Positions 9,596 to 35,467 of a stretch of 40,298 nucleotides of DNA are shown here, piece by piece (the stretch's first letter is position 1; every line of letters starts with the position of its first letter). The position numbers were made by a program, and so were the translations under genes. The stretch is taken from the NCBI GenBank assembly GCA_029250275.1, contig JAPFBP010000008.1:1-40298 (forward strand), in the 5' to 3' direction. This DNA is from Candidatus Nitrosopumilus sp. (lineage in GTDB: Archaea > Thermoproteota > Nitrososphaeria > Nitrososphaerales > Nitrosopumilaceae). Below the pieces are notes generated by a model, which made no database searches, was not told the DNA's origin, and worked only from the letters and a program-made list of their open reading frames with translations.

Positions 9596-10213
9596 CTACA
9601 TTCTGAAATGCGAGAAACTATTCGCAAATGCGACTTGCTTCAAACTTAATTGGCCTCCACGTGCAGATGCGTCTTCTGCTCTTTTTCCAACTACCACCAT
9701 CATTACAATCAGATGGTTCTCTGGCAATTTTATCAATTCAGCTAGTTCGTCATACTCAAAACCTACCATAGGACAAGAGTCAAGCCCCATCTGTCTTGCT
9801 GCAAGCATTATAGTTTGAGCAGCCATCCCGCAAGAACGAACTGCCTCATCGCGCAGGTTCTGAGGATTACCATCATATTTTCGCTCTAGTACTGCCTTTA
9901 CCATTTCTTGTTTTTCTGCAGGATGATTCTTCCAGTAACGTAGCGGATCAGTTCTCCATGCTGTCATATCTCCACACAATACTATAACCAAAGAGCCATC
10001 TCTTGGTTGGGCCTGACCTCTAGCTGCTGCTGAAATCTTTTCTTTTACATCCTAATTAGTAACATAGACAAATCTCCAATTCTGTTGGTTGTAGCTAGTT
10101 GGAGCCAAAATCACATGATTCATTAATTTTTGAACATCATCAGTACTCATTTTGTAACTACTATCAAACTTTTTAATTGCACGTCGAGTCTTTATTGCCT
10201 CAAAAACATCCAT
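9596..10213 (-). pseudogene. nitroreductase-family flavoprotein interrupted by one in-frame TAG
   Basis: Reading from the ATG at 10213 gives a nitroreductase-like protein in a single frame: it starts MDVFEAIKTRRAIKKF and includes the FMN-site region LAPTSYNQQNWRF. After a TAG at 10052-10054 (codon 54) it continues through to the normal C-terminus LSLKQVAFANSF. Full length would be 205 positions, about usual for the family (NAD(P)H:FMN-dependent reduction of nitro or quinone compounds). No frameshift is present, so only one codon disrupts it; CAG or AAG to TAG is a single change. Either it is a recent pseudogene, a sequencing error, or the UAG is read through. The downstream part alone (ATG at 9991) would lack the N-terminal FMN-binding region. 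Confidence 0.8.
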
Positions 10214-10222
10214 GGTACAACT

Positions 10223-10230
10223 AAAAAAAA
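10223..10230 (-). terminator. T8 tract just before the nitroreductase ATG
   Basis: On the minus strand eight T residues end about 10 nt before the ATG at 10213. U-rich tracts terminate archaeal RNA polymerase. In this position, after a structured leader, the tract could be a regulated premature terminator. This is inference from position only. Confidence 0.3.
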
Positions 10231-10254
10231 TATCTAAATTAAATGAAACGAAAA

Positions 10255-10374
10255 GACAGTAGAACTTAAGATCAACGCCCTATGGGTGTCGATGACAGCT
10301 CTTCGCTTAAGATCAGTAACCAAAGGTTTCTGATGACAGCTATTTTCTTAAGGCCTGAAACTTTTTGTAATCAG
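10255..10374. promoter_or_regulatory. 41-nt tandem structured element (candidate regulatory RNA)
   Basis: Two units of exactly 41 nt repeat the invariant blocks CTTAAGATCA and GATGACAGCT, with CTTAAG at 10265, 10306 and 10347. Between the blocks lie 16 nt that differ in sequence but fold alike. Hairpin 1 (10271-10293) and hairpin 2 (10312-10334) are each 10-bp stems with a 3-nt loop, and several pairs change in a compensatory way (A-U to G-C, C-G to A-U). Degenerate flanking copies are visible: GACAG...CTTAAG from 10255, and a weak CTGA/TCAG hairpin at 10355-10374. Strand is undecided. On the minus strand it would lie in a roughly 180-nt leader of the nitroreductase gene. I do not recognise it as a known RNA family. 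Confidence 0.6.
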
Positions 10375-10415
10375 ACGAAAGACTATCTTTTCTTATTATT
10401 ACTAATGTGATTTGG

Positions 10416-10423
10416 ATATTTAA
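10416..10423. promoter_or_regulatory. TATA-like box in the divergent intergenic region
   Basis: ATATTTAA (TTAAATAT on the minus strand) is usable in either direction. Read on the minus strand it would start transcription near 10390 and place the whole 41-nt repeat array in the nitroreductase 5' leader. Confidence 0.35.
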
Positions 10424-10478
10424 CTAACTCTACTATTTCATACTAATCAAAAAGAACTAGTCAATTTCCAGATAGTGT

Positions 10479-10486
10479 ATTTATTA
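10479..10486 (+). promoter_or_regulatory. TATA box of the FAD-dependent reductase gene
   Basis: TATTTATT lies 25-32 nt before the TTG at 10511, the spacing of an archaeal leaderless promoter. It makes the upstream GTG at 10475 unlikely as a start because that codon would sit upstream of the TATA box. Confidence 0.5.
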
Positions 10487-10510
10487 GGCAAACACAAATC
10501 GCAAAATATC

Positions 10511-12626: not shown

Positions 12627-12714
12627 AGCCCGATAGTCTAGTGGTCAAGGATTCTGCCCTCTGGATCTCAAGAGTGGATAGGCGGGGACGGCAGTTCGAA
12701 TCTGCCTCGGGCTA
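12627..12714 (+). tRNA. tRNA-Gln(CUG) with a 15-nt intron
   Basis: The cloverleaf is clear. The acceptor stem is AGCCCGA/TCGGGCT with discriminator A at 12714. The D arm is GTC/GAT with a T-G wobble and a TAGTGGTCAAG loop, and the T arm is GGCAG-TTCGAAT-CTGCC. The anticodon stem CTGCC (12654-12658) pairs with GGCGG (12681-12685) only if 15 nt (12665-12679) are removed after position 37, leaving loop CTCTGGA and anticodon CTG. Archaeal tRNA-Gln typically starts AGCCCG, as here. CTCT (12659-12662) can pair with AGAG in the intron to give a bulge-helix-bulge-like splice site with a GGA bulge. CCA is not encoded. Confidence 0.85.
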
Positions 12715-12744
12715 CTGGTAAAATATTAATAATTTTGTAAAGTT

Positions 12745-34432: not shown

Positions 34433-35407
34433 TTATTTTCTAGATTTGATAATCTTGTTAACTTTGAATCCAATCAATGCTGGTGCTGCAATATACATTC
34501 CCAAGTTCAAAGCAATTACAGAAATTCCTAGTCCTAAAACTTCAACTTCTGAACCATCATTAGCCAAAGTCATTATAGATAATGTTGAAATCATTGGAGT
34601 GATAAATGCTCTAACTGCTTCTTGGAACATTGGATTTTCTCTTTGCATATCAGCAATTGTTGGTGAGAATGAATAGTATAATTGGTTAAATCCAGACATG
34701 AATGCTGCACCAGATGAAGTACTCATTACAGTGTTATCTCGAATTTCTCTAAGGAATTGAACTTGTGGTGCTAATTCAGAGCCATATGCTGCTGTTGCAA
34801 TTAAACAACCACCACCTTTTGGTTCTTCAGTTTTTACAACTTGACAAATTCCATTAACTAATGTAGTTCCAGATCCACATGTTGGTTCAGTTGGTTCTAC
34901 TGGTTCAACAGGTAGAGTTGGTTCTACTGGTTCAACAGGTAGAGTTGGTTCTACTGGTTCAACAGGTAGAGTTGGTTCTACTGGTTCAACAGGTTTGTCA
35001 CTGATTACTTGTTCTCCACCAACATAATTTACCATAATTTCAGAATCATCTGGACCATATTTTACTTGAATTTTATAATCACCGTTTGTTTTCCATAATG
35101 GACCACCTGCTATAAAATCAAAGTTAAAAGAACCATCAGAATTTGGAATCAATTGTCCAATTTTCACAAAACTATCTGTTGGAGATAGGACTATGTAAGT
35201 AACTGCACCAGCAAATAGTGATGAAGAATCATAATTTTTGACAGTTCCAGAAACAGTTACAGATGCACCATTTGCATAAAGTTCATTGTCAGAAGATATT
35301 GGCAATGCAGGATTAGGATCAATTGTTGCAAAAGCAGCGCCACTAACACCATAAGAGAGAATTGAAATAGATAATAATGTAAATGCTAAGAATCCAGACA
35401 GCCTCAT
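34433..35407 (-). CDS. secreted CFI-box-type protein with Ig-like domain and PVEP repeats
   Basis: This 324-aa protein starts at ATG 35407 (an in-frame TTG lies 6 nt upstream). Order: signal peptide (RLSGFLAFTLLSISILSYGV, ending near AAFA); an Ig-like domain like that of the PEFG proteins (about 38-125, LWKTNGDYKIQVKYG near its end); and a proline-rich linker of exact PVEPVEPTL repeats (about 140-175). A CGSGTTLVNGICQ segment leads to the CFI-box-like block GGGCLIATAAYGSELAPQVQ, then LREIRDNTV. The C-terminal hydrophobic helix and basic tail (KVNKIIKSRK) probably anchor it in the membrane. The CFI-box is a recurrent surface-protein module of unknown biochemistry. Confidence 0.78.
   Translation of the reverse strand: MRLSGFLAFTLLSISILSYGVSGAAFATIDPNPALPISSDNELYANGASVTVSGTVKNYDSSSLFAGAVTYIVLSPTDSFVKIGQLIPNSDGSFNFDFIAGGPLWKTNGDYKIQVKYGPDDSEIMVNYVGGEQVISDKPVEPVEPTLPVEPVEPTLPVEPVEPTLPVEPVEPTEPTCGSGTTLVNGICQVVKTEEPKGGGCLIATAAYGSELAPQVQFLREIRDNTVMSTSSGAAFMSGFNQLYYSFSPTIADMQRENPMFQEAVRAFITPMISTLSIMTLANDGSEVEVLGLGISVIALNLGMYIAAPALIGFKVNKIIKSRK
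34893..34994 (-). repeat. 27-bp perfect tandem repeat (3.8 copies)
   Basis: Three identical 27-bp units (34893-34919, 34920-34946, 34947-34973) and a 21-bp partial unit encode the PVEPVEPTL linker of the CFI-box protein. Identity includes third codon positions, pointing to recent slippage or recombination rather than selection on the protein alone. The 27-bp unit keeps the frame, so copy number can vary without breaking the gene. Confidence 0.95.
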
Positions 35408-35467
35408 TTTCAATTTAATTCATGATGTGAGGTATTTATATTTTCAATGAAATAAAAATTGACCAGA

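Follow-up and report, generated by a model that had tools for sequence, protein, structure and literature searches.

CsrB and RsmZ are multi-site sponge RNAs of bacteria with repeated GGA loops, and the RNA reported here resembles them in that one hairpin occurs several times per RNA and in having sibling RNAs elsewhere. However, the constant part of those RNAs is the GGA loop, whereas here it is an asymmetric internal loop of the form NUC/CUUA, for which we predict protein binding. The Qrr and OmrA/B systems offer a parallel of another kind, namely paralogous small RNAs with a shared type of promoter; what is shared in the present case is a covarying structural module as opposed to a seed sequence. 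Among archaeal RNAs, the box C/D and H/ACA guides are likewise short, structured and present in multiple copies, but the boxes that define them are rare here. Similarly, the kink-turn bound by L7Ae has an asymmetric internal loop between two stems, as does our hairpin, which differs in lacking tandem G.A pairs and in having NUC and CUUA as the strands of its loop.

The ammonia-oxidizing archaea to which this locus belongs are among the most abundant cells of the ocean. From another group of marine archaea, the group II Euryarchaeota, comes Tan1, an abundant and structured non-coding RNA of 229 nt without known function (PMC5069720). Going by the description in the accessible part of that paper, both Tan1 and the present RNA are structured and come from marine archaea, but they differ in archaeal group and in length; the same part of the paper describes no RNA like the present family beside Tan1. 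Nor did our literature search, which covered few subscription papers, return an account of such a family.

The window analyzed here is a stretch of 40,298 nt from Candidatus Nitrosopumilus sp. (assembly GCA_029250275.1, contig JAPFBP010000008.1, positions 1 to 40,298). A locus within it led us to what is apparently an undescribed, large family of hairpin RNAs, predicted from sequence and scattered through the genomes of Nitrosopumilus-related ammonia-oxidizing archaea.

Three Hairpin Units and a Closing Helix

The initial annotation of the window had marked 10255–10374 as a tandem array of two 41-nt units with invariant blocks and with inner letters that differ between the units and yet pair. 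The spacing stands, with a single-unit model (R2, described below) matching at 10261–10302 and 10302–10343, and the blocks CTTAAGATCA and GATGACAGCT are indeed common to both units in the letters of the window. The inner letters do differ and pair, but not as the perfect stems drawn on the plus strand: in plus letters, A and C stand opposite each other at one position of the unit 1 stem (G.U when read on the minus strand), and the stem of unit 2 has a T.T mismatch. The limits and the count had to be enlarged. With a cutoff of E up to 0.01, the window element had matches in 58 of the 95 genus genomes; homologous loci were fetched from the genus genomes, and the alignment of 59 of them revealed both a third unit to the right of the first two (10343–10385; R2 E 1.4e-7) and complementary flanking ends. 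The element thus occupies 10250–10393, inclusive of the third unit and a closing helix. Three GACAG…CTTAAG junctions are present as annotated, although the GACAG at 10255–10259 is part of the closing helix and not a repeat junction. The 41-nt array is absent from the output of Tandem Repeats Finder, even at a score of 30; the constant letters of one unit were found in four public contigs titled Nitrosopumilus.

Each unit follows one plan, in which a lower stem leads to a constant internal loop, and a second stem beyond this loop carries a short apical part. On the minus strand, 10250–10393 would form a cloverleaf of about 144 nt with a closing helix and three arms, as given by its minimum free energy (MFE) fold, and we infer a 5′ end near 10393 and a 3′ end near 10250. 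In this fold the 5′ strand of the closing helix P0 (GAAAAGAUAG; 10383–10392) pairs over 10 bp with its U-rich 3′ strand (CUGUCUUUUC; 10250–10259), for which the helix-score test given below also speaks. Arm 1, the unit missing from the initial annotation, lies at 10343–10385 on the minus strand, and its loop in the window letters is UUC (10377–10379) opposite CUUA (10349–10352). It is followed by arm 2 (10302–10343, minus; R2 E 1.7e-10), i.e., the second unit as annotated, with the loop GUC (10335–10337) and CUUA (10308–10311), and by arm 3 (10261–10302, minus; R2 E 2.9e-7), the first unit as annotated, with GUC (10294–10296) and CUUA (10267–10270).

This cloverleaf is the unconstrained MFE structure of the minus strand of 10250–10393 (−46.4 kcal/mol; z −5.02; none of 200 shuffles reaching it), as against −37.1 kcal/mol and z −2.77 for the plus strand. 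The boundaries of the fold, which were picked after the alignment, matter because earlier cuts without P0 (plus strand of 10245–10380, z −2.80; minus strand of 10215–10380, z −2.57) gave no cloverleaf and left the two strands alike. In four relatives (L013, L024, L042 and L055) the identical four-way junction emerges without constraint, and the minus strand has the more stable fold in 49 of the 59 orthologous loci. Across these loci P0 has a mean best-helix score of 8.15. Shuffling the partners lowers this to 7.27 (7.60 at most in 50 shuffles), and plus-strand wobble gives 7.46; in at least 8 of the 59 rows the best-scoring helix lies elsewhere than P0. The letters of P0 change pairwise from locus to locus, as in GGU/ACC, GAC/GUC, GGC/GCC and AAGACC/GGUCUU.

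Compensatory Changes and the Choice of Strand

The initial annotation had read the stems as those of a structured RNA because they appeared to covary, and this is strongly upheld: 21 of 39 pairs have changed on both sides in alignment A1. The latter comprises 56 of the 59 orthologous rows, in plus letters; L054 was omitted for its divergent first unit, L056 as a repeat of L055 from one genome and L065 for the degeneracy of its units 1 and 2. Compensatory changes stand far above both kinds of control, with 135 double-change cells versus 48.2 upon shuffling (0 of 500 shuffles reach 135) and 10–31 in the slid controls. RNAalifold alone, however, predicts only eight pairs on the plus strand of A1.

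The wobble pairs bear on the strand. In plus letters, the non-Watson–Crick cells of A1 include 138 A.C and 21 G.T, where within-column shuffles of the 3′ letters lead one to expect 186.5 and 79.1, respectively; thus, fractions of 0.74 and 0.27 are kept, and A.C is in excess in 25 pair columns as against four for G.T. The set of single units, A3, also has more A.C (64) than G.T (26) in plus letters, although its selection filter admitted G.T and not A.C. The balance is reversed in the 80 single-hairpin copies introduced below when these are read on the RNA strand (77 G.T versus 40 A.C; 10 versus 2 columns). Since A.C on the plus strand is G.U on the minus strand, the plus-strand excess of A.C places the RNA on the minus strand. 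On the strength of the wobble pairs and the fold z-scores, we accordingly depart from the plus strand drawn in the initial annotation, and consider the proposed structure and strand almost certain to be right. The preference of the folds is slighter in the single copies, with the RNA strand folding better in just 47 of the 80.

An early view of a plus-strand RNA with a T-run after unit 3 was abandoned on the wobble count, the P0 folds and the promoter spacing, and a resemblance to the UAA/GAN motif on the plus strand was considered and dropped along with that strand. The alignments A1 and A3 and the search models R1 and R2 had all been built on plus letters, and their G.U scoring fits the opposite strand; the models still detect the loci because the stems are nearly symmetric.

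The same features bear on a DNA-level explanation, namely a protein-bound operator or a cruciform. Inverted repeats between divergent genes, which are seen in many cases, are what such an explanation would lead one to expect, but it sits poorly with stems that covary as their letters drift and with a wobble that is strand-asymmetric, and we regard it as extremely improbable.

The Hairpin Module across Archaeal Genomes

The triple-unit model R1 matched 80 of the 95 genus genomes at E up to 0.1, with 71 of the 95 at 1e-6 or better by table count; in the family, 120 of 250 genomes from 11 of 22 genera were matched at E up to 0.01, many of them weakly. A single unit was modeled because strong extra matches stood elsewhere in the same genomes. 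The underlying set A3 consists of 136 units: from 137 passing a filter, a chance match in L082 was removed and one unit of L011 inadvertently left out, and the third unit of the window, which the filter had missed, was added. As the filter fixes TTAAG and GA-A and demands most of the pairs, it accounts in part for how constant the loop is in A3, and hence in the model R2 built from it (43 positions, 11 pairs), and for some of the pairing in A3.

R2, whose matches count units and not genes, detected 158 of the 250 family genomes at E up to 0.01, with 1 to 20 matches per genome. In the richest (G073), 21 matches at E up to 0.1 reduce to about 17 places, inclusive of the cloverleaf and one double element and exclusive of one weak match. 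In the genome of the window, R2 matches seven times at E up to 1; the cloverleaf accounts for three of these, contigs C9, C17 and C87 for one each, and C66 for a weak one. In a sample of the order, 151 of 400 genomes were matched, one of which (G368) lies outside the family; in a sample of the phylum, there were 52 of 398, all in the family, and hence 0 of 335 genomes outside it (63 family genomes having been sampled, as read from the table order). At E up to 0.01, the model therefore matches genomes outside the family rarely, not never.

Six further loci of the genus (L066–L069, L071 and L072) hold paralogous elements in which units 1 and 3 align while the middle is no longer unit-like. One incomplete genome, G044, has two remnants (L070 on C54 and L065 on C118) whose sole recognizable unit is the third. 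Certain copies are close to a contig end, at about 550 bp or less (G000 C9:155 and C17:182; G109 C79:7568 and C114:4508; G073 C14:12132; G140 C162:3157), and their loci may adjoin repeats or variable regions.

For closer study, 80 single copies were taken, i.e., 80 places from 84 matches in 80 loci after dropping L087 and L089 (repeats) and two matches of the double element L154; these include orthologues and are not independent of each other. On the RNA strand, the commonest form is near GGAAC-U-GUC-ACCAA-nnAACnnnnCGUUn-UUGGU-CUUA-A-GUUCC. The internal loop has CUUA as its 3′ strand in 79 of the 80, and as its 5′ strand GUC in 55, CUC in 20 and UUC in 5. The core is 43 nt long in 52 copies, and outward of it the lower stem continues for a mean of 3.0 extra pairs versus 2.0 with shuffled partners (maximum of 300 shuffles 2.36). 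The apical parts are short and limited in their variation, with ACUAAUCGU and its close variants recurring, and the sequences 3′ of the hairpin vary among paralogues.

A dispersed mobile or repeat element of the MITE or REP kind, in which the hairpin would serve DNA mobility, could account for the number of unit matches per genome and for the nearness of several copies to a contig end, at most a few hundred bases away (G000 C9 and C17; G109 C79 and C114). However, the paralogues differ in their letters and yet pair, many loci are orthologous between species, and a wobble asymmetry confined to one strand is needless for a DNA element. Further, two exact patterns yielded 0 matches each in viral contigs, which is weak evidence as the patterns were strict. 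Taken together, these points make a mobile element an unlikely explanation.

Comparison with Known RNA Classes

The initial annotation had also held that the element is not a CRISPR, a clean C/D or H/ACA RNA or a known riboswitch, and this holds as far as tested, no Rfam family reaching its threshold. At the gathering thresholds of Rfam 15, the window gives solely a tRNA and 12 further loci nothing but a tRNA elsewhere in L082. The stretch 10100–10500, searched at E up to 10, yields five matches, all below threshold, the best being snoU105B with 18.1 bits against a threshold of 49, and the C/D matches for the element are far below their gathering scores. On their RNA strand, 2 of the 80 single copies contain TGATGA and 10 contain CTGA, and in 10 the core is followed by an ACA within 8 nt, versus 4 of 80 in a control stretch; this fits neither box C/D nor H/ACA sRNAs. 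The units depart from CRISPR arrays in that their inner letters are covarying stems and in that they align across species. ARAGORN and Rfam concur in finding the tRNA-Gln at 12627 as the only tRNA in the window. Readings of the loop as a kink-turn, C/D or H/ACA motif were tried by hand and discarded, the variable G-C and A-U pairs excluding a tandem G.A register.

Promoter-Like Elements and the Predicted Ends of the RNAs

A minus-strand TATA-like box, TTAAATATC, stands at 10415–10423, 31 nt before the start of P0, and might serve as the promoter of the RNA. As the initial annotation had proposed such a box, it is of note that it recurs 28–33 nt before P0 in 47 of the 59 orthologous loci; a crude pattern left it undetected in the remaining 12. 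Upstream of it on the same strand (10424–10451) is a promoter-like element of the form GTAG-AAA---TAGT, which is akin to an element of the single copies and divergent in the window, where the single-copy promoter pattern does not match it. The cloverleaf of a relative (L046) carries GTAGAAATTATCAGTA, as the single copies do.

Many of the single copies have a TATA-like box, CTAAATAC, with CGTAnnAATnATCAG ahead of it on the RNA strand (47 rows with a loose pattern). With a stricter pattern, which detects the box in 44 rows and leaves it undetected in 36 of the 80, those of type B among them, the distance from the start of the box to the base of the helix is 25–33 nt in 38 of the 44. The type B copies have a different conserved upstream block. 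A second RNA domain had been considered for the second conserved block of the single copies and was dropped upon inspection; we read this block as a promoter because covariation is lacking among its possible pairs. In the window's genome, the combined pattern of element and box has three matches at 0–1 mismatch, each adjoining a copy (C17, C66 and C87), and at this stringency misses the cloverleaf's own promoter and C9; at up to three mismatches there are 31 matches versus 30 in the reversed control.

At the other end, 24 of the 80 single copies have a run of T5 no more than 20 nt beyond the hairpin, as against 6 copies in either of the two bins that follow, with counts by bin of 9, 0, 0 and 8 of 80 on the opposite strand; runs of T6 are few (7 of 80 versus 3 and 3). 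The spacing of the box and the T runs fit transcription that would begin at the base of the helix and often end soon after it, and it is from such conserved sequence that we infer promoters and RNA ends.

The copies of type D (L114, L131, L156, L186 and L188) have an apparent second hairpin of varying sequence, followed in some by a T-rich run; in L131, which was folded, a T8 run follows the second hairpin. Three of them (L114, L131 and L156) come after a gene that we take to code for elongation factor 2. In two copies of type C (L132 and L143, around 1501–1543), a few dozen bases separate the end of the copy from the 3′ terminus of a convergent gene, presumably one for a phasin.

What follows the hairpin is pertinent to the possibility that the copies are sibling antisense RNAs acting in trans, with the hairpin serving as scaffold or for stability, and with variable apical loops or 3′ tails as the parts that pair with messages. 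The divergence of the post-hairpin sequences among paralogues would agree with this, as would the differing second hairpins of type D and the T8 run beyond that of L131. Against it, the apical parts are short and constrained, with ACUAAUCGU and variants recurring, and where T5 lies within 20 nt of the hairpin, as in the 24 copies above, little tail is left. Message pairing ranks next after the protein docking proposed below, and we deem it rather unlikely.

Gene Neighborhoods and the Question of a Leader

The initial annotation had offered two readings: a riboswitch with a terminator in the leader of a nitroreductase gene, or a free-standing small RNA. The gene neighborhoods speak to both. A gene for an FAD enzyme with weak likeness to geranylgeranyl reductase lies to the right of the RNA in 57 of the 59 orthologous loci, and a nitroreductase gene lies to its left in 45, i.e., next on the RNA strand, behind the U-rich stretch that would end the RNA. 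The position of the nitroreductase and the U-rich stretch, together with certain single copies placed 40–100 nt ahead of a codirectional frame, would favor a leader acting in cis, whether riboswitch or attenuator, for the nitroreductase and for other genes downstream. However, the nitroreductase is missing from 14 of the 59 loci, with at least 600 bases of DNA available on that side, and as 12 of these 14 keep the FAD gene, the RNA stays where the nitroreductase does not. Moreover, the nitroreductase has a TATA-like box of its own in the window letters (10234–10243), about 25 nt before the ATG at 10213.

The genes that follow the hairpin, which it had been suggested to record, reveal no general leader relation among the single copies: using mechanical open frames of at least 70 aa as neighbors, the first frame met downstream along the RNA strand runs in the same direction in 40 copies and is convergent in 37, with a contig end in 3. 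Upstream, the frame is divergent in 52, codirectional in 24 and absent in 4, and four copies (L075, L103, L118 and L205) lie inside a mechanical open frame. Copies in other genera have different neighbors, such as a methyltransferase and a SnoaL-like protein (L082), PAC2 and VWA-like proteins (L085) or a universal stress protein (L086). The 188 frames within 700 nt of copies form 129 clusters, of which the larger follow apparently orthologous loci and none accompanies all the copies; from their letters, we presume some to be cupredoxin, citrate synthase, phasin-like and EF-2-like proteins. The leader half of the initial interpretation hence finds no support, and a cis-acting leader appears to us an improbable account of the family.

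Certain copies keep a fixed short gap before a codirectional frame of one protein cluster (96 nt in L123, L126 and L129; 47–50 nt in L141, L170 and L204), and a cis role is possible for some of those 40–100 nt upstream of such a frame. The other half of that interpretation, a free-standing small RNA, is the supported one, to be read on the minus strand, and we hold it very probable that these are free-standing RNA genes.

A Proposed Role in Protein Docking

While the structure, strand, modularity and distribution of the RNA are supported by sequence, its function is a matter of prediction. The best reading, in our opinion, and one we hold tentatively at somewhat under even chances, is that these are free-standing small RNAs whose arms bind a common protein. 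Briefly, we advance the following mechanism. A minus-strand gene from about 10393 down to 10250 would specify a free-standing small RNA, with its start predicted about 30 nt after the TATA-like box and its end on reaching the U-rich 3′ strand of P0 or shortly beyond it. The transcript would fold into a four-way junction of P0 and three arms, each arm being a modular hairpin with a freely covarying lower stem, the asymmetric NUC/CUUA loop, a covarying stem of about 5 bp and an apical part of near-fixed length. The same module occurs singly or in tandem elsewhere in genomes of the family, in many cases with the shared promoter-like element. Since the hairpin stands at many places, often with that element, these genomes would carry a set of sibling RNAs.

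The constant loop of every arm is a putative docking site for one common RNA-binding protein, because it stays constant while both stems drift, is present one to three times per RNA and recurs in several sibling genes. We predict such docking with less than even confidence, since no family of neighboring genes goes with all the copies and some of the loop's constancy stems from the filter behind A3 and R2. The single-hairpin siblings would bind one copy of the protein and the cloverleaf up to three, and the set would act in trans by holding or delivering the protein, in the manner of the bacterial multi-site sponge RNAs.

Beyond docking as such, the wider picture is one that we put forward as a possibility of a more speculative kind: an undescribed modular class of RNA, near-exclusive to one family of ammonia-oxidizing archaea, in which an RNA comprises one, two or three NUC/CUUA hairpins and a genome has up to about 17 places with such hairpins, with co-expression from a dedicated promoter element, and which might constitute a ribonucleoprotein system without known counterpart. 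If transcribed, these RNAs would provide a handle on post-transcriptional control in marine nitrifiers. Since the copies, their ends and a diagnostic covariance signal are predicted, existing RNA-seq could test for the RNAs, and the constant loop could serve as bait for the putative RNA-binding protein.

Other Features of the Window

The nitroreductase-family gene beside the RNA (9596–10213, minus) has an in-frame stop at codon 54 (10052–10054), where its counterpart in L074 is open; this reflects either a pseudogene or an assembly error. Elsewhere in the window, a 27-bp tandem repeat of 3.9 copies with 100% match (34889–34994) lies within an open frame on the minus strand (34433–35413). The tRNA-Gln occupies 12627–12715, and its length of 89 nt suggests a short intron.
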